Below, in pieces: positions 1-36,539 of a stretch of DNA of 42,784 nt (within the stretch, counting starts at the first letter, position 1; each line of letters starts with the position of its first letter). This DNA is from Chloroflexia bacterium (GTDB lineage: Bacteria > Chloroflexota > Chloroflexia > Thermomicrobiales > CFX8): the NCBI GenBank assembly GCA_030431755.1, contig JAUIIK010000032.1:1-42784 (forward strand). The letters are read 5' to 3'. The position numbers were made by a program, and so were the translations under genes. Under the pieces are notes generated by a model. It had not been told where the DNA came from, did not search any database, and worked only from the letters and a program-made list of their open reading frames with translations.

Positions 1-7
1 GCAAGTG

Positions 8-2032
8 ATGCTGCGACGTCTCCGACTGATCGTACTGGCGGGTCTGCTGGTTGGGCTGCTGCCCGTGGTATCAACAAGCGTGGTCCAGGCGGCGGGCGTC
101 GTTGGCGACGGCACAGCAGGCAGCTGCACCGAAGCAGCACTCGATACAGCCCTCGCCGGAGGCGGGCTCGTGACCTTCAACTGCGGCGCTGCGCCGCACT
201 CGATCGGCCTGACGAGCGAGAAGGTCATCAGTGTCGACACGCAGATCGACGGCGGCGGGCTGATCACACTCGACGGCCAGGACAATGTTCGGATCCTCTC
301 CATCAACGGCGGCATTGCCCTGGTCCTGACTGGTATCAGCCTGACCAACGGCAACGCCAACGGGTCAGGGCTCGCAGGAACTGGCGGCGCAATCTACAAC
401 ACGGGCTCTCTCACCATCACCGACAGCACCATCAGCAGCGGCACGGCCGTTAACAGCGGCGGCGGCATCTACAACGCCGGCATGGTCACCGTGTCCAACA
501 GCACCGTCAGCGGCAACACAGCTACGAGCGCCGGAGGGCTGCACAACAACGGCAACGCTGTTGTGACCAGCAGCACCTTCACTGCCAACACAGCGAATCT
601 AGGCAGCGGTGGTGGGATCGTAAACGATTTCAGCAGCACATTCTCATTGACCGACAGCACAATCACTGGCAATGCAGCGCTCGGCAACGGCGGCGGGATC
701 TTCAACTATGTGCTCAGTACCGCAACCCTGACCGACAGCACCGTCAGCGATAACACAGCCCAGGTTAACGGTGGCGGAATCTACGCGTTCGGAGCGAGCT
801 TCACCCTGCTCAACAGCACGCTCAGCGGGAACATGGTCGGGCTCGATGACAGAAGTAGCGGCGGAGGCTTCTACAACGACAATAGCACCATGGTCGTGAC
901 CGCCAGCACAATCAGCGGCAACACCGCCTCTGGCGGGAGCTTCGGCTATGGCGGCGGCTTCTACAACGAGAGTGGCACCATCGAGGTAAACGCCAGCACA
1001 ATCAGCGGCAACACCGCCGGCGTCGGGATTTTTGGTTTTGGCGGCGGCTTCTACAACTTCGAAGGCACGATCACCGTGACGGATAGCACCGTGCGTGACA
1101 ACGCGATCGGCACGGACGGCGGCGGTGGCGCGGGCGGCGGCTTCTACAACGGCGCAACAAGCACAACAAAGCTCGTCAACAGCACATTGAGCGGCAATGA
1201 CGCGGGCAGCGCTGGTTCCAGCGGCTTCGGCGGCGGCTTCTACAATGACAACATCGTTGAATTGGTCAACAGCACTCTCAGCGGCAATTCGGCGCTCAAC
1301 CTTGGTGGGGGTTTCTTCGCCAATGTGGGCCCCGTCACACTGACCAGCAGCACGCTCAGCAACAATCGCGCCATTATGGGGGGCGGGCTCTACGTCGGCA
1401 CCGGCACGGTCGCGCTCCTGAATACGCTCATCGCCAACAGTTCCGACGGCGGCAACTGTGGAGGCGCAAACGTCGCGTCTCAGGGCGGCAACCTGAGCGA
1501 CGACGACACCTGTTTCCTCGACCAGCCCAGTGATTTCCCCGATACTGCGGCAGACCTCGGCCCGCTCGCGAACAATGGCGGCCCCACGCAGACGCACCTG
1601 CCCCAGGACGGTAGCCTCGCTATTGACAACGCCCTCAACGCTGGCTGCCCGGCCGAGGATCAACGTGGCGTCAGCCGGCCGCGAGGCGCCGGCTGCGACA
1701 TCGGGGCCGTCGAGATCACCGGCGGCCCGACCTATGCGCTCTGCGCCAACTACTACACCGGCGCAGTCACCAGCCCACTCTCCGGCGACTGCGGAGGTGG
1801 AACCGTCGCGCTCGAGCCCTTTGGCCAAACCTTCTGTATCAATCCCTGGACCGGCCGGGTGACCTTCAGCTTCAGCGGCACTTGCACGCCGCCGCGCTTC
1901 GCCCACACGCTGCCGGACGACGGCGATCTGCTGACCTGCGTCAGCCTCTACACCGGAGCCAACCGCTGGGTCACAAATCATAGCCAGTGCAACGCTTACG
2001 AGGTGGCGAACACGATTCCGGCGACGCCGTAG
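8..2032 (+). CDS. Secreted beta-helix (Pmp-like) protein with choice-of-anchor-Q-like region and six-Cys C-terminus
   Basis: Predicted secreted protein of about 674 aa. Residues 1-28 form a signal peptide (basic MLRRLR, hydrophobic core, VQAA cleavage region). A cap follows with CTEAALDTAL and VTFNCG. From about 60 to 490 there are roughly 20-residue repeats of the Pmp type (GG-G-[IF]-[YF]-N then S-T-[IFLV]-S-x-N), expected to fold as a right-handed parallel beta-helix. Residues about 495-569 carry NLSDDD, GPLANNGGPTQT, DQRGVSRP and CDIGAVE, as in choice-of-anchor-Q proteins. Residues about 575-674 hold three Cys modules (CANYYTG, CINPWTG, CVSLYTG). Several repeats near residues 300-420 contain unusual GGGFYN spacers. 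ATG at 8 is preferred to GTG at 5, but the upstream region lies outside the window, so no ribosome binding site can be judged and the true start could lie earlier. Role inferred: surface or extracellular structural protein; no enzyme motif seen. Confidence 0.85.
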   Translation: MLRRLRLIVLAGLLVGLLPVVSTSVVQAAGVVGDGTAGSCTEAALDTALAGGGLVTFNCGAAPHSIGLTSEKVISVDTQIDGGGLITLDGQDNVRILSINGGIALVLTGISLTNGNANGSGLAGTGGAIYNTGSLTITDSTISSGTAVNSGGGIYNAGMVTVSNSTVSGNTATSAGGLHNNGNAVVTSSTFTANTANLGSGGGIVNDFSSTFSLTDSTITGNAALGNGGGIFNYVLSTATLTDSTVSDNTAQVNGGGIYAFGASFTLLNSTLSGNMVGLDDRSSGGGFYNDNSTMVVTASTISGNTASGGSFGYGGGFYNESGTIEVNASTISGNTAGVGIFGFGGGFYNFEGTITVTDSTVRDNAIGTDGGGGAGGGFYNGATSTTKLVNSTLSGNDAGSAGSSGFGGGFYNDNIVELVNSTLSGNSALNLGGGFFANVGPVTLTSSTLSNNRAIMGGGLYVGTGTVALLNTLIANSSDGGNCGGANVASQGGNLSDDDTCFLDQPSDFPDTAADLGPLANNGGPTQTHLPQDGSLAIDNALNAGCPAEDQRGVSRPRGAGCDIGAVEITGGPTYALCANYYTGAVTSPLSGDCGGGTVALEPFGQTFCINPWTGRVTFSFSGTCTPPRFAHTLPDDGDLLTCVSLYTGANRWVTNHSQCNAYEVANTIPATP

Positions 2033-2273: not shown

Positions 2274-3035
2274 CTACTCATCCTCGAACAGCGTGCCGGC
2301 GACCCAATCGTTCGATGTGCTCGCCGTGCGGTTCGCACCGCCACTCACGGTGGCCCAGTCACCGCTCGCCTGATTGGCAAAGCCGCCGCCTACGCTGGAG
2401 TATTCACCGCTCGCGGTGTTCCCGTTGCCACCGTTGATACTTGACGCGACACCGCTGGCTTCATTGTCCGCCCCGCCCGTGATGCTGGCGAAATCGCCGG
2501 TGATGCGGTTCTGAACGCCTGCGACGAGGCCTCCGGAACTGCTGTAGCCGTGCAATTCGCCAATGATGACGTTGTGCGAGCCGCTGCGGTCATAGTCAAA
2601 CGGATTCTCGTTGTAGCCAACGATCAGGTTGCCGGTCCCGTTGAGCGCCCCGTCGGTCTCCCCGGAGCCACTCACGATCTGCACGTTGCAGCCGGTGAAG
2701 AGCGCCGTGCCGTCGTCGTCCGAGAGACACGTGGGCACCTGATTTTCGAGGGCGCTCAGGCGGGCCTCCATGTCGGTCGCCACCGCGCCGCTGCCCAGCA
2801 CAACCGGGAACTCGCTGCCATTGCAGTTGGGCTCACGTCCCGGATACATGAAACGCGCTTGCCCGGTATAGAGACTGACACAGGCGGCGACGTTACCGCT
2901 GACCTGTGCCTGGGCCGGCGTGCTCTCCCGAACCACCGTCGCCAGTAGAAATCCGACAGCGATCAACGCCGCCGTTGTGCCAACGCCAAGTAGAAACGCA
3001 CGTGGTTGACCCACGGCCAGGCGGACGATTTCCAT
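2274..3035 (-). CDS. Secreted or membrane-anchored protein with YadA-head-like repeats and one Cys-YTG module
   Basis: Protein of about 253 aa, one of the few minus-strand genes. A hydrophobic segment near residues 14-35 (FLLGVGTTAALIAVGFLLA) is a signal peptide or N-terminal anchor. It is followed by one copy of the Cys module (ACVSLYTG ... R ... NCNGSEF), the same motif found three times at the C-termini of the beta-helix proteins. Next come a short heptad-like stretch (METRLSALENQ-like, read here as MEARLSALENQ) and a Cys pair (PTCLSDDDG, TGCNV). The second half carries about 14-residue Gly/Ser/Ala repeats such as NxASGxxSSIxGG, resembling YadA head repeats. No C-terminal beta-barrel anchor is present, as expected if there is no typical outer membrane. 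ATG at 3035 is chosen over GTG at 3044 because AGAGGTG lies 6 nt upstream. Function unknown; trimeric stalk-like surface protein is a guess. Confidence 0.75.
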   Translation of the reverse strand: MEIVRLAVGQPRAFLLGVGTTAALIAVGFLLATVVRESTPAQAQVSGNVAACVSLYTGQARFMYPGREPNCNGSEFPVVLGSGAVATDMEARLSALENQVPTCLSDDDGTALFTGCNVQIVSGSGETDGALNGTGNLIVGYNENPFDYDRSGSHNVIIGELHGYSSSGGLVAGVQNRITGDFASITGGADNEASGVASSINGGNGNTASGEYSSVGGGFANQASGDWATVSGGANRTASTSNDWVAGTLFEDE

Positions 3036-3156
3036 GTCTCGCACCTCTCGTAGAATGTTCGGCGTGTCTCTAACTACGGACTATAGAGCAGAACGTCATC
3101 CACACACTCGCCGGGGCGCTGCCAGGTCGCATTCGAGGGGGACAGGCTGGACCGCA

Positions 3157-3192: not shown

Positions 3193-3262
3193 CAAGTAAT
3201 GCGCTATAGTTCTCTCAGCCTGTTACGACGTGTTTCGACATGTTTTCTGTAGGCGGGTCTCA

Positions 3263-6189: not shown

Positions 6190-6228
6190 ATGCCAGATGA
6201 GATGCAGCACAGAGAAGGGAAGCGACAG

Positions 6229-7203: not shown

Positions 7204-7236
7204 CGGCTGGTCCAGCGAGGGATGGAGATACACACC

Positions 7237-17778: not shown

Positions 17779-19683
17779 ATGAACGGAAGACTACGCGGTC
17801 TCCTGGCCGTGCTGCTCCTTGCCGGTCTATTTAACCCCATGTCAAGCGCGCCAGCTGAGGCGGCCGAGGTGGTCGGCGACGGAACGCCGGAGAGTTGCAC
17901 CGAAGCGGCATTCGACGCAGCACTGGCGCCTGGTGGGCTGGTGACGTTCAACTGTGGGCCAGCGAACCACACGATCACACTGACGAATCAGAAGACCCTC
18001 ACCGACGACGTCGAGATCAAAGGCGGTGGACTGATCACGCTTGATGGGGCCAACAGTTCCAGGCTATTCAACGTCAGTTTCGGCCCAACACTCGAGTTGC
18101 GAAACATCACGCTAGCCAATGGATCAGGTCCAGGCGGGGCGGTGCTGGTGGGTAGCGTAAGCACATTGCGAGCCATAGACACTACGTTCGTCAGCAACAG
18201 CAGCAGCAGTGGTGGCGGCGCCATCGACAACAACGGTGGCGACGTTGAGGTGATGAACTCCACCTTCTCCGGCAACTCGGCTGAAGATGGGGGCGCGATC
18301 CTCAACGACGGCGCCATGTTAATCACGGCGAGCACGTTCACCGGCAACAGCACGGTCAGTTCCGGAGGAGCGATTTACAACACCGGCACGCTCGTGCTGA
18401 CGGCGACGACGATCAGCGGCAATAGCTCCGGCATCAATGGAGGCGGAGTCCGCAATGTCAACGGAGCCATCATAATCGCCAGTTCGATCGTCGCCCTCAA
18501 CACTGCGCCCGAGACCGCCCACCAGAATTGTTCCAATAACGGCGGCACGATCGTCTCATCGGGCTCGAATCTGAGTAATGATGCGAGTTGCCCCTTTACC
18601 GATACGGGCGACATCCGCGACAGCGCCAACGTCGACCTCGGGCCACTCCAAGACAATGGCGGCCCCACGCAGACGATGGCGCCCGCCTCAACATCCGCCG
18701 CCATCAACGTCGCCGACTGCACGCTCTCCACGACAGAGGACCAGCGCGGCGTTGCCCGGCCAACGTCCGGGACAAGCTGCGACATCGGCGCCGTCGAGGT
18801 GCGGGGTCCGGATGTATTTGCGCCCTTCGTATTTCCTTCACCGTCCGACGAAGGGCAATCTATCAACCTCTCCACAATGTTCTTCCCTACGCCCGGTGGT
18901 GAGGGGCCCTACACCTGTACCATCGACTACGGCGACGGAACCGACCCCGAACCCGGGCTTGTCATTGACGACTCACTCTGCGACGGGCTCGGTCACGTGT
19001 ACGTCGACGACGATCCGAGCGGCACGCCGAGCGACGACTACACGATCACCGTCACCGTCTATGACAGCACCGGCAGCGGCAGCGCGAGCACGTTTCACAC
19101 GGTCTTCAACGTCGCGCCCATGATCACCGCCATCACGACTGACGGACCGGTCCCTCAGGGGCTGCCCGTCACCATAACCGTCACGGCCACCGATGCCGGC
19201 GTCAACGACACACTGACCTACAGCTTTGATTGCGACAACGACGGCTCCTACGAGACACCGGGCGCCGGCAACAGAGGCCAGTGCGCCCTCGATCCTGGCG
19301 CGGCGACATCCACCGTCGGCGTCAAGGTCGAAGACGACGACCTCGGCGTCACCACCGGCACCGTCGTCGTCGGCCAGACGCTGACGCTCTGCCTGAACTA
19401 CAGCACCGGAGCCGTCAGTGAACCCGGCATGAGCGGCTGTAGCGCGGGAACAATCGCGCTGACCATGCCGGGCATCACGCCGGTGACCTTCTGCATCAAC
19501 CCCTACACGGGCCGGCTGACCTGGGCAGCGCGCGGAACCTGCGCTGGCAGCTACTGGCCGCACATGGTGCCGGACGATGGACCGCTGCACTACTGCCGCA
19601 GTCTCTGGACCGGACAGTTGCGCGAGCCATCGACACCGGGTCAGTGCAACGCCTACGAAACACCCGGCGTCATTCCGGGCTAG
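17779..19683 (+). CDS. Secreted beta-helix protein with PKD-like domains and six-Cys C-terminus
   Basis: Protein of 634 aa. Signal peptide (RLRGLLAVLLLAGLF, then AEAA), cap CTEAAFDAALAPGG, and Pmp-like repeats to about residue 260 (GGAIDNNGG, STFSGNSA). A choice-of-anchor-Q-like part follows (NLSNDASC, PLQDNGGPTQT, DQRGVARP), ending in CDIGAVE at about 334-340. Unlike most siblings, about 185 residues of PKD/Ig-like sequence come next (CTIDYGDGTDPEPG, HVYVDDDPSG, YSFDCDNDGSYET). The Cys modules occupy about 536-634 as CLNYSTG, CINPYTG and CRSLWTG, with an unusual GMSGCSAG spacing. ATG 17779 follows GAGGAAGAG. This longer architecture is shared only with 31725-34955. The PKD-like domains probably act as spacers that lift the helix off the surface (inference). 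First of four beta-helix genes in a row. Confidence 0.85.
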   Translation: MNGRLRGLLAVLLLAGLFNPMSSAPAEAAEVVGDGTPESCTEAAFDAALAPGGLVTFNCGPANHTITLTNQKTLTDDVEIKGGGLITLDGANSSRLFNVSFGPTLELRNITLANGSGPGGAVLVGSVSTLRAIDTTFVSNSSSSGGGAIDNNGGDVEVMNSTFSGNSAEDGGAILNDGAMLITASTFTGNSTVSSGGAIYNTGTLVLTATTISGNSSGINGGGVRNVNGAIIIASSIVALNTAPETAHQNCSNNGGTIVSSGSNLSNDASCPFTDTGDIRDSANVDLGPLQDNGGPTQTMAPASTSAAINVADCTLSTTEDQRGVARPTSGTSCDIGAVEVRGPDVFAPFVFPSPSDEGQSINLSTMFFPTPGGEGPYTCTIDYGDGTDPEPGLVIDDSLCDGLGHVYVDDDPSGTPSDDYTITVTVYDSTGSGSASTFHTVFNVAPMITAITTDGPVPQGLPVTITVTATDAGVNDTLTYSFDCDNDGSYETPGAGNRGQCALDPGAATSTVGVKVEDDDLGVTTGTVVVGQTLTLCLNYSTGAVSEPGMSGCSAGTIALTMPGITPVTFCINPYTGRLTWAARGTCAGSYWPHMVPDDGPLHYCRSLWTGQLREPSTPGQCNAYETPGVIPG

Positions 19684-19747: not shown

Positions 19748-21160
19748 ATGAACCGAGGAATCTGGCGCGTCGCCTTCGCGCTCAACCTGTTGATGGCGGT
19801 GGTCCCGCTCACGCGGGTGAACATCGCCGTCGCGGACGACGCGGTTGTCGCAATCTGTGACGAAACGAGTTTCGATGCGGCGCTGGCAAGCGCGTTGAGC
19901 GGCGGAGGGACGATCAGCTTCAGTTGTAGCGGCACGCTCACCTTCACCGGCCAGAAGGCGATCAACGCACCGAACGTCGTCGTGATCGACGGGGCGAACC
20001 AGATCACCTTCGACGGCGGCGGCGCAACCCGGCTGTTCCAAGTCGACGACGGCGCGACGTTGGAGCTACACAACCTGACGCTCAGCAATGGGACAGGCCA
20101 GGGCGGCGCTGTGCACGTGAGTAGTGATGGAACGTTGCGGGCGGTTGGCAGCACCTTCAGCGACAACGGAAATCTAGAGGTCTTTGAGGGCGGAGCGATC
20201 GACAACGACGGTGGCGTGATCGAGGTGACTAACAGCACGTTCAACGACAACATGGCCGCATATGGTGGCGCGATCGACAATGATCCGGGCACGCTGACCG
20301 TAGCCAACAGCACATTCAACGACAACAGTGCAAAGTTCAATGCCGGAGCAATCTACAATGGCGGGGGGCTGACGGTGACGGCCAGCACCTTCACCGGAAA
20401 CAACGCCAATGACCGTGGCGGCGCGATCTACAACGAAGACTCGCTGTCAGTGATGGCGAGCACCCTCACCGGAAACAGCGCCGGAGACCGCGGCGGGGCG
20501 ATTCGCAATCTCGAAGGCACGACGACGATTGCCAGCTCGATCGTAGCGCTCAACACAGCCTCGACTGGGAACAACTGCCACAACTTTGACGGCTCCATCA
20601 CCTCTCAAGGCAGCAATCTCATCGACGATGGCGGCTGCAACTTCACCGCTAGCGACGACATCCGGCATAGCGAGAACATCGACCTCGAACCGCTCCAGGA
20701 CAACGGCGGCCCCACGCGAACAATGGTTCCAGCCAGCACCTCCGACGCCATCGACAACGCCGATTGCACGCTGTCGACAAGCGCCGACCAGCGTGGCGTC
20801 AACCGGCCCCAGGGCTCCGGCTGCGACATCGGCGCGGTCGAACGCATCCAGACCGGAACCTACCTGCTCTGCGCCAGCTACTACACCGGCGCTGTCTCAA
20901 GTCCGCTCTCCGGTGACTGCGGCAGCGGCACTGTCGAAATCACGCCCTTCGACTCCAGCTTCTGCATCGACCTCTACACCGGCAAGCTGCTCTACCGCTT
21001 CGGACGCGCCTGCAACCCTCCACGCGTCGCTCACACCATGCCTGACGACGGCGACCTGCTGACCTGCGTCAGCCTCTACACCGGGGCGAACCGCTGGGTC
21101 AACAACCATAGCCAATGCAGCGCCTACGAAGTCCCGAACACGATCCCAGCCACACCGTAG
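19748..21160 (+). CDS. Secreted beta-helix protein with six-Cys C-terminus
   Basis: Protein of 470 aa. Signal peptide MNRGIWRVAFALNLLMAVV, cleaved probably before the ADDAVV segment. The cap is the CDETSFDAAL variant with FSCSGTLTF, shared only with the next two genes. Compact Pmp-like repeats run from about 100 to 270 (GGAIDNDGG, STFNDNSA, GGAIYNEDS). The anchor-Q-like segment ends in CDIGAVE at about 358, followed by the three Cys modules at about 375-470 (CASYYTG, CIDLYTG, CVSLYTG). ATG 19748 is preceded by an AGGGAGAGG tract. An in-frame start at 19577 would lie inside the upstream gene, so it is not used. The very similar neighbours at 21267 and 22738 indicate a local triplication of this cap type. 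Confidence 0.85.
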   Translation: MNRGIWRVAFALNLLMAVVPLTRVNIAVADDAVVAICDETSFDAALASALSGGGTISFSCSGTLTFTGQKAINAPNVVVIDGANQITFDGGGATRLFQVDDGATLELHNLTLSNGTGQGGAVHVSSDGTLRAVGSTFSDNGNLEVFEGGAIDNDGGVIEVTNSTFNDNMAAYGGAIDNDPGTLTVANSTFNDNSAKFNAGAIYNGGGLTVTASTFTGNNANDRGGAIYNEDSLSVMASTLTGNSAGDRGGAIRNLEGTTTIASSIVALNTASTGNNCHNFDGSITSQGSNLIDDGGCNFTASDDIRHSENIDLEPLQDNGGPTRTMVPASTSDAIDNADCTLSTSADQRGVNRPQGSGCDIGAVERIQTGTYLLCASYYTGAVSSPLSGDCGSGTVEITPFDSSFCIDLYTGKLLYRFGRACNPPRVAHTMPDDGDLLTCVSLYTGANRWVNNHSQCSAYEVPNTIPATP

Positions 21161-21266: not shown

Positions 21267-22673
21267 GTGAGGGAGTTCTGGCGAGGGCTGCTTACACTGT
21301 CGTTGCTGGCCGGGATGCTGGCGCTATCACCGTCTAACCCAGTGACTGCGGATGACTCAGTTGTCTCGACCTGTGACGAAGCGAGCTTCGACGCCGCTCT
21401 GGCGACGGCGCTGAGCGGTGGCGGCACGATCACTTTCAGCTGTAGCGGCACGATCACCTTCACCAGCCAGAAGGTGATCACTGCTCCGAACGTCGTTGTG
21501 ATTGATGGCGGGGGTCAGATCGCATTCGATGGCAACGACGCGACGCGCCTGTTCGTCGTCAATGGCAACGCAACAATGGAAGTGCACAACCTGGAGCTCA
21601 ACAATGGGAGTGGCGACGGCGGGGCCGTCAGGATCCGAAGTGGCGCTACATTGCGGGTGGTCAACAGCAGTTTCGATAGCAATGGCGGGGGGTTTGAGGG
21701 CGGAGCACTGGACAACGACGGTGGAGTGATCGAGGTCGTCGACAGCACCTTCAGCAGCAATGTCGCGGACAATGGCGGCGCAATCGACAACGATCCGGGC
21801 ACATTGACCGTGACCAACAGCACCTTTCGCAACAACAGCGCAGACTTTGGTGCGGTGATCTACAACGACGACTCGCTGACGATAGTAGCCAGCACGATCA
21901 GCGGCAACAACGCGGGCAGCAGCGGCGGGGCGGTAACCAACTCTAGATCTGGCACGCTGACGATTGCAGCTAGCACGATTAGCGGGAACAGTGCGAATAG
22001 CGTTGGTGGAGGCATTCGTAACTTTGGAAGTACGACGATAATCGCCAGTTCGATCGTGGCGCTCAACACCGCGCCGACTGGAGCCAACTGCAACAACTTC
22101 GATGGCTCTATCATCTCTCAGGGCAGCAATCTCAGCGACGATGACAGCTGCAACTTCACTGCAAGCGACGACATCGAGAATAGCGCCAATGTCGACCTCG
22201 GGCCGCTCCAGAACAATGGTGGCCCCACTAAGACCATTCTGCCCTCTGGCACCTCCGATGCCGTCGACAATGCCGATTGCAGCCTGTCAACCTCCGCAGA
22301 TCAGCGTGACATCAGCCGTCCGCAAGGCGCAACCTGTGATATCGGCGCGGTCGAACGGGTGCTGGGCGCGACCTACACCCTCTGCGCCTCGTACTACACC
22401 GGCGCCGTCACCAGCCCGCTCTCCGGCGAGTGTCGCAACGGCACCGTTGAAGTCACACCATTCGACAAGACGTTCTGCATCGACGTCTACACCGGCAAGC
22501 TGCTCTACCAGTTTGGTCGCCCCTGCAACCCGCCACGCGTCGGTCACACGATGCCCGACGACGGCGACCTGCTGACCTGCGTCAGTCTTTACACCGGCGC
22601 GAACCGCTGGGTCACGAGCCATAGCCAATGCAGCGCTTACGAACTGCCGAACACGATCCCGGCCACGCCATAG
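21267..22673 (+). CDS. Secreted beta-helix protein with six-Cys C-terminus, GTG start
   Basis: Protein of 468 aa. GTG 21267 is the likely start: AAGGGA lies about 6 nt upstream and it gives the signal peptide MREFWRGLLTLSLLAGMLAL. The overlapping ATG at 21265 is out of frame and meets a stop at once. The cap CDEASFDAAL with FSCSGTITF matches the preceding and following genes. Repeats include FDSNGGGFEGGALDNDGG and STISGNSANSVGGGI, with AIDNDPGTLTV shared word for word with the neighbour upstream. The anchor-Q-like part ends CDIGAVE at about 357. The Cys modules (CASYYTG, CIDVYTG, CVSLYTG) run from about 372 to 468. A 69-nt block here (22341-22409) is identical to the next paralogue at 24127-24195. 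Surface localisation is inferred. Confidence 0.85.
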   Translation: MREFWRGLLTLSLLAGMLALSPSNPVTADDSVVSTCDEASFDAALATALSGGGTITFSCSGTITFTSQKVITAPNVVVIDGGGQIAFDGNDATRLFVVNGNATMEVHNLELNNGSGDGGAVRIRSGATLRVVNSSFDSNGGGFEGGALDNDGGVIEVVDSTFSSNVADNGGAIDNDPGTLTVTNSTFRNNSADFGAVIYNDDSLTIVASTISGNNAGSSGGAVTNSRSGTLTIAASTISGNSANSVGGGIRNFGSTTIIASSIVALNTAPTGANCNNFDGSIISQGSNLSDDDSCNFTASDDIENSANVDLGPLQNNGGPTKTILPSGTSDAVDNADCSLSTSADQRDISRPQGATCDIGAVERVLGATYTLCASYYTGAVTSPLSGECRNGTVEVTPFDKTFCIDVYTGKLLYQFGRPCNPPRVGHTMPDDGDLLTCVSLYTGANRWVTSHSQCSAYELPNTIPATP

Positions 22674-22737: not shown

Positions 22738-24459
22738 ATGCGACGAATCTGGCGGACATTGATCACGATCAGCCTGGTGGTTGGGATATTGCCCGTTGCG
22801 GCAGCCGGCGTTGCCGTGGCTGGCGATGCGGTCGTGACGACCTGTGACGAGACGAGCTTCGACACCGCCCTGGCGACGGCGCTGAGCGGCGGCGGCACGA
22901 TCACCTTCAGCTGTAGCGGGACGATCACCTTCACCAGCGTCAAGACGATCACGGCCGGGAACCCGGTCGTCATCGATGGCGGCGGGACGGTCACGCTCGA
23001 CGGCGGCGACGCCACACGCATGTTCAACGTGGAAGCGGGCGCGACCCTCGAATTGCGCGAGATCGCGATCAACAACGGCAACGACGGGTCTGATGTCGAT
23101 ATCCCCGACCCCGGCGGAGCAATCCATGTGCTTGGGACGCTACGCACGTTCGACAGCAGCTTCGACAGCAACGAAGGCGGTTCCGAGGGTGGCGCGATTG
23201 ACAACGACGGTGGAACCATCGAGATCGCCCGAACCAGCTTCACGAACAACACCGCCGCCTTCAGCGGCGCGATCGATAACGACCCCGGCGTGCTCACAAT
23301 CACTGGCAGCACATTCAGCGGCAACAGCGCAACCATTGCGGGTGGCGTGGCCTACAACAGTGGCAACGTGAGAATTTCGGCGAGCAACTTTAGTGGCAAT
23401 ACCGCTCAGTTTGCAGGCGCCATAGCCAACGACCCCGCCGGCGACGTGACAGTCGAGGCGACCACATTCATCGGCAATAGTGCAATCGACTTTGGCGGCG
23501 CAATCGATAGCGGCGGCTATGTGATGGTCTCGACCAGCACATTCATCGACAACTCAGCTCGCTTCGCCGGCGCGATCGGCTCCGGCGGCGAGCTGATCGT
23601 CGCAGGCAGCACCTTCATCGGCAATAGCGCCGAACTCAACGGCGGCGCAATCGGCAATCAGCCGGGCACGACGACGGTCTCCACCAGCACCTTCTACGAC
23701 AACTCAGCCCAGTTTGGCGGGGGGATCTACAGCGACGACGACCTGTCGGTAACGGCAAGCACGCTCATCAACAATAGCGCCAGCCTCGGCGGGGGCGGCA
23801 TCCGCAACTCCGGCGGCGACGCCACCATCGCCAGTTCCATCGTAGCGGCGAACACCTCGCCTTCCGGCCCGAATTGCGGCATCAACGGCGGCACGACGAC
23901 ATCGCTCGGCTCCAATCTCAGCGACGATGACTCCTGCCCGTTCACTGCCAGCGGTGACATCCAGAACAGCACGAACATCGACGTCGCCGCGCCGGCCGAC
24001 AACGGTGGCCCGACCGAGACGATGCTGCCCGCCCTCAGCTCCGACGCTGTCGATAACGCCGCCTGCGGAGTGTCGTCGGCTGCGGACCAGCGCGGCATCA
24101 GCCGACCTCAGGGACCGGCCTGCGACATCGGCGCGGTCGAACGGGTGCTGGGCGCGACCTACACCCTCTGCGCCTCGTACTACACCGGCGCCGTCTCCAG
24201 CCCGCTCTCCGGCGGCTGCGGCAATGGCACGGTGGAAATCACACCCTTCGACAAAACGTTCTGCATCGACTCCTACACTGGCAAGCTGCTCTATCAGTTT
24301 GGCCGGCCCTGCGCTGCGCCGCGTATCAGTCACACGCTGCCGGACGACGGCGACCTCCTGACCTGCGTCAGCCTCTACACCGGCGCCAACCGCTGGGTCA
24401 GCAATCACAGTCAGTGCAACGCGTACGAGCTGGCGAACACGATTCCAGCCAGTCCGTAG
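22738..24459 (+). CDS. Secreted beta-helix protein with six-Cys C-terminus, longer helix
   Basis: Protein of 573 aa. Signal peptide MRRIWRTLITISLVVGILPV. Cap CDETSFDTAL and FSCSGTITF. The helix is extended by about five extra rungs compared with its two upstream neighbours (repeats such as STFIDNSARFAGAIGSGG and STFIGNSAELNGGAIGNQ), showing rung-number change within otherwise very similar proteins. CDIGAVE is at about 461, and the Cys modules at about 478-573 are CASYYTG, CIDSYTG and CVSLYTG. The start at ATG 22738 is supported by AAAGGAA about 10 nt upstream; an upstream in-frame ATG at 22693 would put a basic tail ahead of the signal peptide. It is the last gene before the second regulatory cassette. 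Confidence 0.85.
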   Translation: MRRIWRTLITISLVVGILPVAAAGVAVAGDAVVTTCDETSFDTALATALSGGGTITFSCSGTITFTSVKTITAGNPVVIDGGGTVTLDGGDATRMFNVEAGATLELREIAINNGNDGSDVDIPDPGGAIHVLGTLRTFDSSFDSNEGGSEGGAIDNDGGTIEIARTSFTNNTAAFSGAIDNDPGVLTITGSTFSGNSATIAGGVAYNSGNVRISASNFSGNTAQFAGAIANDPAGDVTVEATTFIGNSAIDFGGAIDSGGYVMVSTSTFIDNSARFAGAIGSGGELIVAGSTFIGNSAELNGGAIGNQPGTTTVSTSTFYDNSAQFGGGIYSDDDLSVTASTLINNSASLGGGGIRNSGGDATIASSIVAANTSPSGPNCGINGGTTTSLGSNLSDDDSCPFTASGDIQNSTNIDVAAPADNGGPTETMLPALSSDAVDNAACGVSSAADQRGISRPQGPACDIGAVERVLGATYTLCASYYTGAVSSPLSGGCGNGTVEITPFDKTFCIDSYTGKLLYQFGRPCAAPRISHTLPDDGDLLTCVSLYTGANRWVSNHSQCNAYELANTIPASP

Positions 24460-27742: not shown

Positions 27743-29623
27743 ATGCAGAGATGGTGGCACATCGCAGCGACATTCATGCTGCTCGCGAGCGCCGAGTTCG
27801 GCGTCGGAGTCCAACCAGTCCTTGCAGCTGGCGTCGTTGGGACCGGCACACCGGGCAGTTGCGACGAGACGGCGCTCGACACAGCGCTCGCCGGAGGCGG
27901 ACTCGTGACCTTCAATTGCGGCGCGGCGCCGCACACGATCCCGCTGACGAGCGAGAAGGTGCTCGTCCTGGACACCCAGATCGACGGGGGCGGGCTCATC
28001 ACCCTCGATGGACAGAATCAAACGCGGCTCTTCTATGTGAACGACAGTATCCGCGTCGACCTGATCGGGATCACGCTCACCGGCGGCAACGGCGCGGGCA
28101 TTTCCGCCGGCGCTGGCGGCGCGATCGTCAACAACGGCCTTCTCGTGTTGACCAGCACGGCCATCACCGAGAACTCCGCGAACCTCGGTGGCGCGATTAA
28201 CAACGAAGGCGAATTGACGCTCGACGGCAGCAGCGTCACGAACAATGCGGCGGCTGTCGACGGTGGCGGCATCTACAATCGCGACAGGGTTGGCGGCCGC
28301 GGTATCTTGACGGCAACCGACAGCGACTTCAGTGGCAACTCCGCCGGTGAGGATGGCGGGGCAATCTTCAACTCCTCCGGTGATGTCACGCTTGCAGGCA
28401 GCACGGTGGACAGCAACAGCACCGTCTCAAGACACGGCGGAGCGATCTTCAGCAGCAGTGGCACGCTTGCGGTCACCGCTAGCGCCCTCAATGACAATTA
28501 CGCGGGTGTCTTCGGCGGCGCGCTCTACTTCGACGGCGGGACGGCCGAGTTCACGCACAGCACCCTCAGCAACAATAGCTCGGGCGCAGGCGGGGCGATC
28601 TACCACGACACCGGCGTGTTGGAGATCGCCGGCAGCACGTTCACCGGCAACAGTTCCAGCGAAGCTGGGGCAATCCGCAACACCGGCGTGGTGGAGATCA
28701 CCGACAGCACCTTCAGCGGCAACAGCGCTGAACACTCCAGTGGCGCGATCACCAACAATGGCACGCTGGAGATCAGCAACAGCACCCTCAGCGACAACAC
28801 TGCGGCTGCCGGTGGCGCGCTGCTCAATGCAGGCAACTTGGAAATCACGAATAGCACCCTGAGCGGCAACAGCGGGGAATTCGGCGGCGGCGCACTCTAC
28901 AACTACACCGGGACGATGGCGGTTACGAGCAGCACCATCAGCAACAACAGCGGCGAGCTCGGCGGCGCGATCCTCAACGATGGCGCAACCTTCCTGACCA
29001 GTTCCATCGTGGCGGGCAATACGGCGACCGGACCAAACTGCGACGTGCACGGCGGCACGATCACCTCGCTCGGGCACAACCTTAGCGACGACGACTCCTG
29101 CCTTTTGACCCAGACCGGTGACATCCAGAACAGCGCCAGCGTGAATCTCGGGACGCTCCAAGACAACGGCGGTCTGACCGAGACGATGCTGCCGGGCGCG
29201 AGCTCCGACGCCGTCGACACGAGCGATTGCAGCCTGACAACAGCCGCGGACCAACGCGGCGTTGCCCGGCCGGTTGGCGCGAGCTGCGACATCGGTGCGG
29301 TCGAACGGGTCCAGGGCGCAACCTACCGGCTTTGCGCCAACTACTACACCGGCGCCGTCACCAGCCCACTCAACGGCAATTGCGCCACGGGCACAGTCGA
29401 AGTCACGCCCTTCGACAAGTCCTTCTGCATCGACCTCTATACCGGCAAGCTGCTCTACCAGTTCGGACGCGCCTGCAACCCGCCGCGCGTCGCGCACACC
29501 ATGCCGGCCGACGGTGATCTCCTGACCTGCGTCAGCCTATACACCGGGATCAACCGCTGGGTCGCGAACCATAGCCAGTGCAGCGCCTACGAGCTGGCGA
29601 ACACGCTCCCGGCAAGCCCGTAG
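27743..29623 (+). CDS. Secreted beta-helix protein with six-Cys C-terminus
   Basis: Protein of 626 aa. Signal peptide (MQRWWHIAATFMLLAS ... VLAAG), then GVVGTGTPGSCDETALDTAL, VTFNCGAAPHTI and TQIDGGGLITLDG, a cap nearly the same as in the genes at 29684 and 40022. About fifteen rungs follow (GGAINNEGE, STFSGNSA, STISNNSGELGGAILNDG). The anchor-Q-like part (NLSDDDSC, DNGGLTETMLP, DQRGVARP) ends in CDIGAVE at about 514. Cys modules at about 530-626 are CANYYTG, CIDLYTG and CVSLYTG, the last followed by INRWVANHSQC. ATG 27743 is preceded by GAAAGGGAAG; the in-frame ATG at 27710 lacks one. First secreted gene after the second regulatory cassette and so a candidate target of it (inference). Confidence 0.87.
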   Translation: MQRWWHIAATFMLLASAEFGVGVQPVLAAGVVGTGTPGSCDETALDTALAGGGLVTFNCGAAPHTIPLTSEKVLVLDTQIDGGGLITLDGQNQTRLFYVNDSIRVDLIGITLTGGNGAGISAGAGGAIVNNGLLVLTSTAITENSANLGGAINNEGELTLDGSSVTNNAAAVDGGGIYNRDRVGGRGILTATDSDFSGNSAGEDGGAIFNSSGDVTLAGSTVDSNSTVSRHGGAIFSSSGTLAVTASALNDNYAGVFGGALYFDGGTAEFTHSTLSNNSSGAGGAIYHDTGVLEIAGSTFTGNSSSEAGAIRNTGVVEITDSTFSGNSAEHSSGAITNNGTLEISNSTLSDNTAAAGGALLNAGNLEITNSTLSGNSGEFGGGALYNYTGTMAVTSSTISNNSGELGGAILNDGATFLTSSIVAGNTATGPNCDVHGGTITSLGHNLSDDDSCLLTQTGDIQNSASVNLGTLQDNGGLTETMLPGASSDAVDTSDCSLTTAADQRGVARPVGASCDIGAVERVQGATYRLCANYYTGAVTSPLNGNCATGTVEVTPFDKSFCIDLYTGKLLYQFGRACNPPRVAHTMPADGDLLTCVSLYTGINRWVANHSQCSAYELANTLPASP

Positions 29624-29683: not shown

Positions 29684-31624
29684 ATGAACCGACGTTGGCG
29701 CAGCTTGAGCATCTTGCTACTCCTGGCCGGACTCGTTTCGGTCGCCCCAAGCAACCCGGCGCAAGCGGCCGGCGTCGTTGGGACCGGCACACCGGGCAGC
29801 TGTGACGAGCCGGCGCTGGAGACGGCGCTCGCCGGCGGCGGACTCGTGACCTTCAACTGCGGGGCGGCGCAACACACGATTGGGCTGACGAGCGAGAAGA
29901 TCATCAGCGTCGACACGCAGATCAATGGCGGCGGATTGATCACACTCGATGGGCAGGATCAGACGCGCATCTTCTATATCAACACCGATATCGCGTTGGA
30001 ACTCACCGCCCTCACACTTACCGGTGGCGACAATAGTGGCCCGCCCCCATCCAACGGTGGCGGCGCGATCCACAACGCAGGCGGAATCCTCACGATCACC
30101 GACAGTAGCCTGAACAACAACAGCGCAGACTACGGCGGCGCAATCTTGAACGGCGCCGGCGCAACACTCAACCTCACCGGGAGCGTAGTCAGTGAAAACG
30201 ATGGGCGTGAAGGCGGCGCGCTCTACAGTCTCAACGATTCGACGACAACGATCATCGACAGCACGCTTTCCGGCAACCATGCCGAAACCAATGCTGGCGC
30301 GATATACGGCCTGGCAGGCGCGACAACCATCACCAATAGCGCCATCAGCGACAACACCAGCGAGATTGTAGGCGCGATTGCTAACGCAGGCGGCACACTC
30401 ACGATTACCGGCAGCACCATCAGTGGCAACGTCAGCGTGGGTAGCCACGCTGGCGGGATCTATAGCAGATCGAACGGCATTGTTACGATCGTAGATAGCG
30501 ACATTGCCGCCAACGAGGCGGGAGCCTCCGGCGGCGGGATCTATGCCGCTGACAGCACGGTCACCATCACGCATAGCACCGTCAACAACAACCAGGCGCG
30601 CAATTCCGGCGGCGGGGTCTTTAGTAGCGGCGACAACACCAACGTCTTCATCGCCGACAGCACGATCGACGGCAACCAGACGACCTCCGCCGGCGCCGGG
30701 ATCTACGTATCGTCCGGGTTCCTCACAATGACCAACAGCACCGCCAGCAACAACGTCATGGTCCCAGCTTCCGGTGGAGTTATCGGCAGTGGCGGCGGGC
30801 TCTACAACCTCTTCGGAACGACCACCGTTTCCAACAGCACCTTCAGCGGAAACAGCGCGAGGACGGGCGGCGGGATCTACAACTATGAGTCAGGCATCCT
30901 GACGGTGATCAACAGCACCGTCAGCGACAATACCGGCATGCCCGATAGCTTCGTTCCGGTAGTCGCGGATGGGATCGGCAATGCCGGCGACATCACCCTG
31001 ACGAACACGCTCGTTGCGAACAATAGAGATTTCGACAATTGCGTCAATCTCGGCGGCTCGTTCACCTCCGCAGGCGGTAATCTCAGCGACGACGACAGCT
31101 GCCTCCTCGACCAGCCCAGCGACCTGCCCGACACCGCGACCGGCCTCGGGCCATTGACAGACAACGGCGGGCCGACGCTGACCCACCTGCCAGAGCCTGA
31201 TAGCCCAGCCATCGATAGCGGCCTCATCATCGCCTGCCCCGACGCAGATCAACGGAACATCGAGCGCCCGCAAGGGGCAGGCTGCGACATTGGCGCGGTC
31301 GAAGTCCGGCAGGGCGCAACCTACGCTATCTGCGCTTCCTACTACACCGGAGCCGTCTCCAGCCCGCTCTCCGGAGGCTGCGGCCCAGGTGCGATCGAGC
31401 TCAACGTACCCGGCAACCTGAGCTTCTGCGTCAATGGCTGGACCGGCCAGCTCACCTATTCGTTCGGCCGTACCTGTACGCCACCTCGCATCGTCCACAC
31501 GATGCCCGACGACGGCGACCTGCTGACCTGTGTCAATCTCTACACCGGCGCCAACCGCTGGGTCACGAACCACAGCCAGTGCGGAGCCTACGACGTGCCG
31601 AATACGATCCCGGCAGCGCCGTAG
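29684..31624 (+). CDS. Secreted beta-helix protein with six-Cys C-terminus
   Basis: Protein of 646 aa. Signal peptide MNRRWRSLSILLLLAGLVSV, then AQAAGVVGTGTPGSCDEPAL and GGLITLDGQDQTRIF. Rungs include SSLNNNSADYGGAILNG, STISGNVSVGSHAGGIYS and STVNNNQARNSGGGVFS. Compared with the preceding gene, the anchor-Q-like region is the longer 'LDQPSDLPDTA' type also seen in 8-2032, so this protein is a mix of the two subtypes. CDIGAVE is at about 533 and the Cys modules at about 549-646 (CASYYTG, CVNGWTG, CVNLYTG). The middle module reads NGWTG instead of the usual DLYTG or NPWTG. ATG 29684 follows GAGAGAAGGAA. Predicted extracellular and structural; no catalytic motif seen. Confidence 0.87.
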   Translation: MNRRWRSLSILLLLAGLVSVAPSNPAQAAGVVGTGTPGSCDEPALETALAGGGLVTFNCGAAQHTIGLTSEKIISVDTQINGGGLITLDGQDQTRIFYINTDIALELTALTLTGGDNSGPPPSNGGGAIHNAGGILTITDSSLNNNSADYGGAILNGAGATLNLTGSVVSENDGREGGALYSLNDSTTTIIDSTLSGNHAETNAGAIYGLAGATTITNSAISDNTSEIVGAIANAGGTLTITGSTISGNVSVGSHAGGIYSRSNGIVTIVDSDIAANEAGASGGGIYAADSTVTITHSTVNNNQARNSGGGVFSSGDNTNVFIADSTIDGNQTTSAGAGIYVSSGFLTMTNSTASNNVMVPASGGVIGSGGGLYNLFGTTTVSNSTFSGNSARTGGGIYNYESGILTVINSTVSDNTGMPDSFVPVVADGIGNAGDITLTNTLVANNRDFDNCVNLGGSFTSAGGNLSDDDSCLLDQPSDLPDTATGLGPLTDNGGPTLTHLPEPDSPAIDSGLIIACPDADQRNIERPQGAGCDIGAVEVRQGATYAICASYYTGAVSSPLSGGCGPGAIELNVPGNLSFCVNGWTGQLTYSFGRTCTPPRIVHTMPDDGDLLTCVNLYTGANRWVTNHSQCGAYDVPNTIPAAP

Positions 31625-31724: not shown

Positions 31725-34700
31725 ATGAGCACCTTGTGGCGCGGCCTGGCGACCTTTGCCTTGCTGACCGGATTATTGGTACTCGCACCGGTGCAACCGG
31801 CGACAGCTGCCGGGACCGTCGGGACCGGTACGGCGGATAGCTGTACCGAGACGGCGCTGGAGACAGCACTGAGCAACGGCGGCTCGGTCACCTTCGACTG
31901 CGGATCCAGCGCCGTAACGATCAGCGTGACAAGCCAGAAGACGATTGCCGCCGACACGCAGGTCGATGGTGGCGGGTTGGTGACCATTAGTGGGAGTAGC
32001 GCAACCGGGATCTTTTATCTGGACGCAGGAGTGCGTCTGAATATCGCGGATCTCAACCTCGCCCAGGGCAGCGCGGACAACGGCGCGGCGCTCTACAACG
32101 ACGGCGGCACGCTGACGATGAGCGGGGCCACCCTGAGCGGCAACTATGCCAACCTGCAGGGCGGCGCGATCTACAACACCAACGGCGGCGAACTGTCGAT
32201 CACGAACAGCGCCTTCAGTAACAACAGCGGAGGAGAATACGCGGGCGGCGCGATCTATAGCGTCGGCGGTGGTGAGATCGACATCACCAACAGCACCTTC
32301 AGCAACAACTTCGGAAACGGCAATGGTGGCGCGATCTACAGCACCGGCGACGAGAGCGTCACCGTCACCGGCGGTACCTTCAGTAAGAATGAAGGCGTCG
32401 GCGGCGCCGGCAGTATCTACAGTGATGGCACGCTTGCCGTCTCAGGCACGACCTTTGACACCAACTACGGCGATACCGGCAGCGCGATCCAGCAGGACGC
32501 CGGCACACTGGTCGTCGTGAACGGAACATTCACCAACAACTGGCCCTCTCAAGGAGGGCTCGGTAACGGCGGGTCGATCTACATCAACGCTGCTACCGTC
32601 ACAGTTGCGGATTCGACGTTCAACAGCAACACGAACTACAACGGCGGCGCGCTCTACAACGCCGGTGGCACATTGACTGTCCTGAACAGCACAGTCAACG
32701 GCAACACGGCTACTGTCAACGGCGGCGCACTCTACAATAGAGGAACGACATCCTTCTTTGACTCCAGCATCAATAGCAACGGCACCCAAGCCGATGACTC
32801 CGGCGCGGGCGGGGGAATCTACAACGACGGCGGGACGCTGACCGTCACCGACAGCACGCTCAACAACAACGGCTTCGCCAATCATGGCAGCGCTCTTTAC
32901 AACACAAACAGTGGAAGCGCGACGCTCATCGCCAGCACGTTGAATGGCAGTGTTGCGAATCAGGGCGGTGCCATCTACAACGTCTCCGGCACGGTCAACC
33001 TCATGGCCAGCACCGTCGACCGCAACATTGCTGCCGGCTGGGCCGGCGGCATCTACAACAACGACACGATGACGATCGAGAGCAGCGTCATCAGCCGCAA
33101 CCAGGCTGATCAGGGGGCCGGGATCAATCACAATGCAGGCGTCCTGACGATAACCGGCAGCCTGCTCACCGGTAATGCCCCTTCGAGTCTTGGGCAAGGC
33201 GGCGCGCTCTATATCAAGACGGACACCGTCAACATCACAAGCTCGACATTGACCGGCAATAACAACCCCAGCGGGGGCGGGATCTACATTGCCGGCGGTA
33301 CGCTGACGCTGCTCGGCAGCACGCTCAGCGCCAACGATGCCAACTCCGGCGGCGCGCTCTACGCAGCCGGCGGGACGACCTCGATCACAAGCTCGATTGT
33401 TGCCGGCAACACGGTGGTTCCCGGAAGCTCCGTCATGAACTGTCAGATCGATGGCGGGACTGTCACATCCGGGGGTTACAACCTCAGCGACGACGACAGC
33501 TGCGCACTCAGCGGCACGGGCGACATTCAGGACAGCGCGAACGTGAGCCTCGGTTCTCTTAGCGACAATGGAGGACCGACCGAGACGATGCAGCCCGACA
33601 CAAGCTCCGCTGCCGTCGGCGCTGTTGACTGCTCGGTCACTCCATCAGAGGACCAGCGCGGCGCGGTCCGGGATGCGAGCGGCACGACCTGCGTTATTGG
33701 GGCGGTCGAGGTCGCTGCACAGGCGCCGGTGCAACTCATTACCGTCTACAACGACACTGGACCGATCGCCGAAGGCTCTACGGCGACGATCAACGTGGTC
33801 GCGACCGGCCCAGCCGGTATCAGCTACGACTACGGTTTCGATTGCGACGACAGCGGCGACTACGAGACGTCCGACAGCGGCGCGGGCGACTCCGGTTCGG
33901 CCGACTGCACATTCGAGAGCGACGGCACATTCACCGTTCCAGTGCGTGTCTGCGCCACTTCCGACAGCAGCAACTGCGATACCGGCTCAACGACTATCGT
34001 CGTCACCAACACCGCGCCAGTCGTCAGCACGCCGACGGTGACGCCTTCGAACACAAACCAGACCGGACGGACAACGCTCGGGAACCCGGCGGAGGAGTTC
34101 TCGTCGTCGGATGAGGGGGCAAGCGTCGTCGCCAGCGCCACCTTCTATGACCCCGGAATACCGGACTATCACACCTGCACCGTCGACTACGGTGATGGCA
34201 GCGGACCACAGGCGGGCACGGTCATCGTCAACAACGACGGCGATATGGATACCTGCGTCGGACCGCACCACATCTACATCGACGACAACCCGTCCGGCAC
34301 CGACCGCGATCCCTACGCCGTCACCATCGAAGTGATCGATGACGTCGGACATCCTGGCGACAACTTCACCATCCATTACGTCAACAACGTCCCGCCAACG
34401 ATCGACGCAGTTGAGGCAGACACCGCAGGCGACATCGTGACCATTACGGTCGACGCCAGCGATGTAGGGGTCGAGGACATCCTGACCTACAGCTTCGATT
34501 GCGACAATGACGGTAGCTACGAAACGGAAGGAACCGGGAACCAGGGCGAATGCAGCGCCGACGCCGGCGCAACCATCAACGTCCAGGTTATGGACGATGA
34601 TCTGGGCGAGGCGACAAGCGCCGTGACGCTCGAGCAGCCTGCCAGCGTCGAGCTGTGTGTGGACTACCTGACCAGTGTCGTGCGTGCCGCAGGCGAGATT

Positions 34701-34955
34701 GGGTGCGGAACAGCGAGTTTCTTGCTGGCACTGCCGGACGACGCGCCGACGGCCTTCTGCATCAGCGCTGGGCTCGGCAAGCTGCGCTGGTCGAGCGACA
34801 GTCAGTGCCCGCCCAATCAGGAACTCCACATCGTACCGGACAACGGACCGATTCACGCTTGCTATACCCCGTATCTGGGACTGCTGCGCGTCGTGGAAGC
34901 GTTAAGTCAGTGCAGCGCCTACGAGGTGGCGAATGCTATCTCGGCAACGCCGTAG
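31725..34955 (+). CDS. Large secreted beta-helix protein with three PKD-like domains
   Basis: Protein of 1076 aa, the largest of the family here. Signal peptide MSTLWRGLATFALLTGLLVL, cap CTETALETALSNGG with TFDCGSS, then more than twenty rungs to about residue 610 (GGAIYNTNGG, STFSNNFGNGNGGAIYS, STLNNNGFANHGSALYN). An anchor-Q-like part ends in the variant CVIGAVE at about 656. About 665-965 holds three PKD-like segments (IAEGSTATINV; CTVDYGDGSGPQAG; YSFDCDNDGSYET). The C-terminal 100 residues keep the six Cys of the module region, but the T-G is degraded in all three (CVDYLTSVV, CISAGLGKL, CYTPYLGLL), unlike every sibling. ATG 31725 follows GAGGGAGT. The DNA of the second PKD-like segment (34003-34218) has a near-copy in the pseudogene at 41782-41997. 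Confidence 0.87.
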   Translation: MSTLWRGLATFALLTGLLVLAPVQPATAAGTVGTGTADSCTETALETALSNGGSVTFDCGSSAVTISVTSQKTIAADTQVDGGGLVTISGSSATGIFYLDAGVRLNIADLNLAQGSADNGAALYNDGGTLTMSGATLSGNYANLQGGAIYNTNGGELSITNSAFSNNSGGEYAGGAIYSVGGGEIDITNSTFSNNFGNGNGGAIYSTGDESVTVTGGTFSKNEGVGGAGSIYSDGTLAVSGTTFDTNYGDTGSAIQQDAGTLVVVNGTFTNNWPSQGGLGNGGSIYINAATVTVADSTFNSNTNYNGGALYNAGGTLTVLNSTVNGNTATVNGGALYNRGTTSFFDSSINSNGTQADDSGAGGGIYNDGGTLTVTDSTLNNNGFANHGSALYNTNSGSATLIASTLNGSVANQGGAIYNVSGTVNLMASTVDRNIAAGWAGGIYNNDTMTIESSVISRNQADQGAGINHNAGVLTITGSLLTGNAPSSLGQGGALYIKTDTVNITSSTLTGNNNPSGGGIYIAGGTLTLLGSTLSANDANSGGALYAAGGTTSITSSIVAGNTVVPGSSVMNCQIDGGTVTSGGYNLSDDDSCALSGTGDIQDSANVSLGSLSDNGGPTETMQPDTSSAAVGAVDCSVTPSEDQRGAVRDASGTTCVIGAVEVAAQAPVQLITVYNDTGPIAEGSTATINVVATGPAGISYDYGFDCDDSGDYETSDSGAGDSGSADCTFESDGTFTVPVRVCATSDSSNCDTGSTTIVVTNTAPVVSTPTVTPSNTNQTGRTTLGNPAEEFSSSDEGASVVASATFYDPGIPDYHTCTVDYGDGSGPQAGTVIVNNDGDMDTCVGPHHIYIDDNPSGTDRDPYAVTIEVIDDVGHPGDNFTIHYVNNVPPTIDAVEADTAGDIVTITVDASDVGVEDILTYSFDCDNDGSYETEGTGNQGECSADAGATINVQVMDDDLGEATSAVTLEQPASVELCVDYLTSVVRAAGEIGCGTASFLLALPDDAPTAFCISAGLGKLRWSSDSQCPPNQELHIVPDNGPIHACYTPYLGLLRVVEALSQCSAYEVANAISATP
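34003..34218 (+). repeat. PKD-like segment duplicated at 41782-41997
   Basis: 216 nt that align without gaps to 41782-41997, with about 13 differences counted by eye (roughly 94% identity). The encoded start is TNTAPVVSTPTVTPSNT. The copy is out of its normal context in the downstream pseudogene, joined there directly to an early beta-helix rung. Confidence 0.85.
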
Positions 34956-35057: not shown

Positions 35058-36539
35058 ATGAGTACCCTGTGGCGCGGCTTTGTTGTCGCCTTTGTGCTAG
35101 CAGGCACATTTGTCGTGCATGCGTCCCGCCCGGCGAGCGCTGCCGGTGTCGTCGGCAACGGCACACCGGGCAGTTGCTCCGAAGCGGCGCTGGATACCGC
35201 GCTCTCCGGTGGCGGCCTGGTGACCTTCAACTGTGACGCGGGTGACCTGCCGATCGTGCTGACGAATGAGAAGATGATCAACGCCGACACTCGAATTGAG
35301 GGCGGCGGGGTGACACTCAGCACCGACGGCAACAACCGGCACTTCACGGTCAACAACGGCTTCACCCTGGAGCTAGAGGGCATCACGTTGCGCGATGGCA
35401 ATGTCGGAGGCAACTCGGGTGGCGCGATCGTCAACTACGGCACGCTTTTGATCTCCAATAGCACGCTTACCAGCAACGTTGCGGGAAATCTCGGTGGCGC
35501 AATTGTCAACGACGGAGGCACGTTAGAGATCGCAGGCAGCACGTTGGCCGAGAACAACGGAGGCCTCGGTGGCGGGATCTACATCGCCGAAGGCATCGTG
35601 ACGATCACCTCCAGCACCCTCAATGACAACGATGCAGGAAACGCCGGCGGCGGGATCTACGCGAGTACCGGCACGCTGGAGCTCACAAGCAGCACACTAA
35701 GCGGCAACAGCGCCCTCAACGGTGGTGGAGTGTTCGTACTCGTGGCAACAGTCACGCTCACGAATAGCACGCTAAGCGGCAACAGCGTCGGAGCCCGCGG
35801 CGGTGGATTCCAGAATGCCATTGGCAGCATGACGGTCTCCAACACCACAATCACTAACAACATCTCGACTTCGGATGTAGCCGGCGCATACCAGAGTGAC
35901 GGTAGCCTGACCTTCCAAAACACCATCATCGCGAACAACGGCTTCCTTAGCTGCTTCAATGTTAGCGTGCCGACTTCGCTGGGCGGCAACCTGACAGATG
36001 ACGACACCAGCTGTACAACGGCGTTCAATCAACCCACAGACCTTTATGTAGACGACGCCCTGCTCGGCCCGCTGGCGGACAATGGCGGTCCAACGCTCAC
36101 GCATCTGCCTCAGACCGGCAGCCCGGTCATCGACAACGGTCTCAACGGCGGCTGCCCCGCTGAGGACCAGCGCGGCGTCAGCCGACCGCGGGGTTCTGCA
36201 TGCGACATCGGCGCCGTCGAAGTTTCCGGTGGCGCAACCTTTGGCCTCTGTGTCTCCTTCTACACCGGCGCCGTCACGAGTCCACTCTCCGGTAGCTGTG
36301 GCGCAGGCACCGTGGCGATTGAGCCCTACGGCCAGACGTTCTGCATCAACCCCTGGACCGGCCGGCTGACATTCAGCTCCAGCGGCACCTGCGCGCCGCC
36401 GCGCTTCGCCCACACGCTGCCCGACGACGGCGACCTGCTGACCTGCGTGAGTCTCTACACCGGCGCCAACCGGTGGGTGACACATCACAGCCAGTGCACG
36501 CCCTATGAGCTACCAAACACAATTTCGGCCCTGCCATAA
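35058..36539 (+). CDS. Secreted beta-helix protein with six-Cys C-terminus
   Basis: Protein of 493 aa. Signal peptide MSTLWRGFVVAFVLAGTFVV, sharing its first seven residues with 31725-34955. Cap CSEAALDTALSGGG with VTFNCDAGDL; rungs include STLTSNVAGNLGGAIVNDGG, STLSGNSALNGGGVF and STLSGNSVGARGGGF. The anchor-Q-like part has an expanded loop (CTTAFNQPTDLYVDD) and ends CDIGAVE at about 381. Cys modules at about 397-493 are CVSFYTG, CINPWTG and CVSLYTG, and with the YGQTFCINPWTG form it is closest to the first gene of the window. ATG 35058 follows GAAAGAGAA. A fragment of a close relative of its early helix (35300-35385) occurs in the pseudogene near 42010-42075. Confidence 0.87.
   Translation: MSTLWRGFVVAFVLAGTFVVHASRPASAAGVVGNGTPGSCSEAALDTALSGGGLVTFNCDAGDLPIVLTNEKMINADTRIEGGGVTLSTDGNNRHFTVNNGFTLELEGITLRDGNVGGNSGGAIVNYGTLLISNSTLTSNVAGNLGGAIVNDGGTLEIAGSTLAENNGGLGGGIYIAEGIVTITSSTLNDNDAGNAGGGIYASTGTLELTSSTLSGNSALNGGGVFVLVATVTLTNSTLSGNSVGARGGGFQNAIGSMTVSNTTITNNISTSDVAGAYQSDGSLTFQNTIIANNGFLSCFNVSVPTSLGGNLTDDDTSCTTAFNQPTDLYVDDALLGPLADNGGPTLTHLPQTGSPVIDNGLNGGCPAEDQRGVSRPRGSACDIGAVEVSGGATFGLCVSFYTGAVTSPLSGSCGAGTVAIEPYGQTFCINPWTGRLTFSSSGTCAPPRFAHTLPDDGDLLTCVSLYTGANRWVTHHSQCTPYELPNTISALP

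Follow-up and report, generated by a model that had tools for sequence, protein, structure and literature searches.

Results

A cysteine-rich terminus of three units

What is the cysteine-rich end shared by the exported beta-helix proteins of this locus, and why does it come in three similar parts? The DNA analysed here (the window, 42,784 nucleotides) spans the whole of contig C219, one of 272 in a genome of 5.1 Mb that is 97 percent complete, and it encodes ten exported proteins of beta-helix type, most of those scanned carrying a choice_anch_Q domain. In all ten the last ~103 residues consist of three homologous units of ~34 residues each, with the pattern C-x3-[YW]-T-G-x(8-10)-C followed by a strand. 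The ~100-residue end of frame 2..2032 holds its six Cys in the units CANYYTGAVTSPLSGDC, CINPWTGRVTFSFSGTC and CVSLYTGANRWVTNHSQC (motif Cys codons at nt 1742, 1835 and 1937, respectively), after which comes NAYEV. Its upstream choice_anch_Q match (NF041518) scores 81.8 bits against a cut-off of 25.

The earlier note had read this end as three tandem repeats of one unit, and the counts bear this out. The strict form C-x3-[YW]-[TS]-G-x(8,14)-C occurs three times in seven of the ten copies and twice in two more, while 20,000 shuffled modules never reached two matches. The remaining, diverged copy (34641-34952) has none, having lost YTG and retained its six Cys, which are present in all ten frames. 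An alignment of the ten (A1, 107 columns) has 16 invariant columns, all six Cys included, and pairwise alignment of units within three sample proteins mostly exceeded shuffles (Z 2.5 to 5.8, with one pair at 0.9). Three homologous units within one chain, as seen in these sequences, are a defining property of the beta-trefoil fold.

The module has no match in Pfam even at E 10, the SLH and CWB2 wall-binding repeats among the families sought, and a sequence search of solved structures returned nothing credible. No relatives were found in PHROGs, phage records or IMG/VR, an Rfam scan of the window returned nothing, and inspection of the module sequences for a membrane segment or basic tail revealed neither.

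Table 1. Module copies and associated domains in the window.
Feature	Position	Strand	Evidence or remark
Three-unit module, reported copy	1733..2029	+	units start near nt 1733, 1826, 1928; AF2 model pLDDT 86.7
choice_anch_Q domain directly 5' of reported module	1553..1717	+	NF041518
Single unit of module family, in exported beta-roll protein 2274-3044 (-)	2787..2900	-	profile E 1e-16; unit HMM
Three-unit module after PKD-like domains, protein 17779-19683	19372..19680	+	alignment A1, module profile
Three-unit module, protein 19577-21160	20852..21157	+	alignment A1, module profile
Three-unit module, protein 21267-22673	22365..22670	+	alignment A1, module profile
Three-unit module, protein 22693-24459	24151..24456	+	alignment A1, module profile
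Three-unit module, protein 27710-29623	29312..29620	+	alignment A1, module profile
Three-unit module, protein 29684-31624	31310..31621	+	alignment A1, module profile
Diverged three-unit module after PKD-like domains; six Cys kept, YTG lost	34641..34952	+	alignment A1, module profile
Three-unit module, protein 35058-36539	36231..36536	+	alignment A1, module profile
Three-unit module, protein 39992-41281	40970..41278	+	alignment A1, module profile

Other genes of the window also encode exported proteins. Four paralogues of ~790 residues (7222-9597, 9628-12009, 12046-14415 and 37570-39945, all +) lack the module and share the terminal motif ELC(L/V)RGVT...ACNF; FG-GAP repeats were found in 7222-9597, the one scanned. 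An apparently related exported domain with no Pfam match is encoded by 6190-7203, 36605-37558 and the C-terminal part of 14452-17301 (all +), where it looks fused downstream of another exported protein. Two large LuxR-type regulators with NB-ARC/AAA and TPR domains (3230-5635 and 24755-27124, both +) lie amid these genes.

Three units or one across the genome

The DNA form of the motif matched 109 times genome-wide (34 for the reversed control), and a search with the module profile returned 59 places. Units were counted with an iterated single-unit HMM run on all fetched frames of the genome, which gave exactly three units in 48 frames and one in 17, and no frame with two, four or more. The 48 triplets share ancestry and so do not count as 48 independent events. 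Of their 144 units, 142 retain both Cys; one exception lost the two together and the other is a late-starting match. Units are as a rule spaced 34 residues apart.

Forty of the 48 triplets are C-terminal, mostly 0 to 4 residues before the stop. The other eight lie near the N-terminus of exported proteins (in C19 cut by the contig end), most of them close after the signal peptide and ahead of Ig/cadherin-like or other domains. The hydrophobic N-terminal segment in nearly all frames with a complete N-terminus indicates that module proteins are exported, which agrees with the extracellular rather than mostly cytoplasmic location assumed in the earlier note. Its placement of the module after choice_anch_Q or PKD-like domains likewise holds here, a module match standing, by position, just downstream of 34 of the 35 choice_anch_Q (NF041518) matches in the genome. 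The profile search and domain survey also extended the range of contexts to collagen, beta-roll and C1q/BclA-type proteins, across phyla. The module is common to the beta-helix family, as had been proposed, but a C-terminal anchor particular to that family is too narrow a reading of a general extracellular unit: eight triplets are N-terminal, and single units precede other tails in non-beta-helix exported proteins.

The 17 one-unit frames include three decayed or contig-edge fragments (L086, L089 and L106); without these, and with the separately read C167 and C213, there are 16 intact single-unit proteins. Three decayed short frames with one unit (G000:C98:13122-13208, C209:43950-44093 and C60:8007-8108) appear to be remnants of triplet modules, and the first adjoins an intact copy.

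Intact single-unit proteins run from a hydrophobic N-terminal segment through the unit (for example VTIRACINYYTGNMRILRTGSCNPAGEYMVEWNQQG in C221) to a tail, except for C161, a helical protein with its unit at the C-terminus. The tail consists of collagen repeats in six, one of which ends in a BclA/C1q tail, and of a beta-roll in four, including window protein 2274-3044 (-). Five more have a small C-terminal domain that in other members comes after collagen. Collagen thus occurs in 6/16 intact single-unit proteins vs 0/48 triplet proteins (Fisher p 1e-4). A long glycine-rich stretch of GGX type in one triplet protein was not scored as collagen. Trimer-associated tails follow single units, and triplets sit in solenoid or multi-domain proteins; against a trimeric setting for every single unit stand the four beta-roll tails, which may not be trimeric, and C161.

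The small C-terminal domain common to collagen-like and collagen-free single-unit proteins is unnamed, has the pattern C-x-x-G-x-x-x-x-x-GGG ... W ... AxC, and is carried by L096, L184 (C167), L160, L172, L077, L081, L099, L101 and L183 (C213).

Single and triplet units are homologous. A profile built mainly from single units (A5) matched the third units of triplets at E 1e-12 to 1e-15, and single units score best against unit 3. A tree of units, which has 36 columns and few supported forks, groups the single units with unit 3 and most N-terminal units with units 1 and 2, and is compatible with one triplication or with several. Module units also show the profile C-x4-[ST]-G-x-x-R-x(n)-C-x3-E of a Cys unit found in bacterial collagen-like proteins.

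A predicted three-fold domain

The structure was modelled with AF2 from window sequences only (the ten window modules). The window module was predicted with pLDDT 86.7 and pTM 0.74 as nine strands in three sets of three, the fold of three similar units that the earlier note had put forward for checking by structure prediction. Of the five models from this first prediction, two were good and three poor. With the divergent PKD-type copy 19369-19680 as query the strand order was similar, but because pLDDT reached only 57 the fold is not independently replicated.

With this model, neither plain Foldseek nor a BFVD fold search gave a significant match. VIA-align, which re-ranks Foldseek candidates only, returned a top 50 made up almost entirely of beta-trefoils, aligned along the whole module at Z-scores no higher than 4.8, in a range (below 8) where by the tool's own note a match may reflect a mere common arrangement. 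The matches included Symfoil (Z 4.8, rmsd 3.4 A, 86 residues), actinohivin, FGF1, fascin, R-type lectins and CBM92. Their agreement is suggestive of a beta-trefoil-like fold for the modelled module, and is not proof of one; other folds would also be compatible with these search results. A known trefoil leaf has 42 residues and four strands, and the complete fold is a six-stranded barrel closed by a hairpin triplet; the units described here have 31-35 residues and three predicted strands (AF2).

Occurrence outside the genome

All 23 proteins with the unit found outside this genome (Chloroflexota, Actinomycetota and other records) have a single one. Gly-X-Y runs of 7 or more are present in 18 of the 23, and one protein has a heptad-like repeat. 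Collagen is favoured in this sample, since one of the searches used collagen-flanked units as its starting point. One Chloroflexota protein (L155 1154-2065, +) is oddly composed, its single unit and collagen repeats being joined to an Hcp-type domain at the C-terminus (T6SS_HCP, E 1e-20).

No triplet was found among the best candidates scored per genome in 60 relatives and 400 genomes sampled from the phylum, nor by one narrow pattern scan of the species collection. Two other genera of the same family have single units only, ahead of collagen or a heptad-like repeat, and the choice_anch_Q proteins of relatives run on into other domains. The simplest order of events is that the single unit came first and the triplet later, in this genus.

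Discussion

The reading favoured here, to which we give slightly less than an even chance, is that the module comprises three fused beta units arranged round a pseudo-three-fold axis in one compact, probably beta-trefoil-like domain. The Cys pair probably staples each unit by a disulphide. A closed three-fold domain would demand just such a copy number, three or one. Single units would form homotrimers at the head of collagen-like proteins, each chain contributing one leaf, and triplication of such a unit could have produced the triplet, so that in non-trimeric proteins such as monomeric solenoids one chain would bear the whole head. Where it stands at the free end of an exported protein, this head may be a binding domain, perhaps lectin-like, that attaches or targets the protein to polymers of the envelope or matrix; we infer such binding to be its likeliest role, and a plausible one. 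The anchor proposed in the earlier note persists as one form of this putative role.

The module could instead be a dedicated surface-attachment domain of the beta-helix family, which binds cell-wall polymers without a covalent link, as SLH or CWB2 triplets do, the fold being incidental. Its three repeats, its occurrence at one or the other terminus of exported proteins and its place after choice_anch_Q, a domain named for variable anchors, speak for this, and placement at both termini would equally fit any non-covalent binding module. We nevertheless consider it unlikely, as in many bacteria a lone unit stands ahead of tails of collagen, beta-roll or C1q type, and no wall-binding family matches the module. 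The many triplets that end just before the stop would suit a C-terminal sorting signal, cleaved and serving a dedicated machine for secretion or anchoring, but this reading is rejected as highly improbable because eight triplets lie near N-termini; single units are N-terminal too, and neither a membrane segment nor a basic tail is visible in module sequences.

The low structural Z-scores, the poor AF2 model for the divergent query and the existence of units on their own would also be expected if the module were an open array of three independent small disulphide knots on a string, their number reflecting descent rather than fold. This we regard as improbable, given that C-terminal and N-terminal groups alike have only three units or one, and that the confident AF2 model is a single compact domain (pTM 0.74).

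If the compact three-fold domain is correct, the locus may further record the natural birth of a beta-trefoil, in which a homotrimeric leaf on collagen-like proteins was fused into a triplet that spread in one genus to about fifty exported proteins, leaving both ends of the route in one genome. This wider proposal is tentative, and the balance is clearly against it. As described in PMC8880906 and PMC9062101, the ancestral trefoil was a trimerising single motif, which has been demonstrated with a designed 42-residue peptide. A self-assembling single-motif ancestor of a symmetric protein has been called a missing link, then unobserved in nature (PMC4735018). This reading of three units or one matches the conserved-architecture model of trefoil origin (PMC9062101, PMC8880906). 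A single genome here contains the natural unit in both states, one copy per chain where proteins are trimer-associated and three copies in others, so natural sequences can serve to test the idea. If true, a long-debated route of protein-fold evolution would become testable in nature. The unit further points to a domain not yet charted, which is widespread among the collagen-like proteins of bacteria and may act as their head for trimerisation or binding.

Comparison with known systems

The closest sequence parallel is a Cys unit, as yet unnamed, at the N-terminus of bacterial collagen-like proteins (G-x-I-x-x-C-x-N-x-x-[ST]-G-x-x-R-x-V-x(n)-C-x3-E-x-x-[IL]-x-W-N-Q), for which Pfam has no model. 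By profile it shares with the module unit the first Cys, TG, R, second Cys and E, but it occurs once per chain ahead of collagen, whereas the module mostly has three copies, which follow beta-helix or PKD-like domains or precede nothing. Choice-of-anchor Q proteins (NF041518) resemble those described here in domain order, the domain preceding the module in nearly all cases in this genome; in relatives it precedes other domains.

Beta-trefoils (Symfoil, actinohivin, R-type lectins, FGF and fascin) likewise have three pseudo-symmetric beta units and match the modelled module over its full length. The module differs in its Z-scores below 5 and in its smaller units, each with a Cys pair, ~34 residues and three strands in the prediction instead of ~42 residues and four strands. 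As in the designed trimerising single-motif trefoil of Lee and Blaber (2011), as described in PMC8880906 and PMC9062101, one leaf per chain is proposed, but the unit here is a natural sequence and its trimerisation is inferred. Propeller motifs (PMC4735018) offer a parallel at the level of the genome, since one genome contains both lone motifs attached to other domains and symmetric sets in fused form; the module, unlike the propellers, is three-fold, and its single unit is found in trimer-associated proteins.
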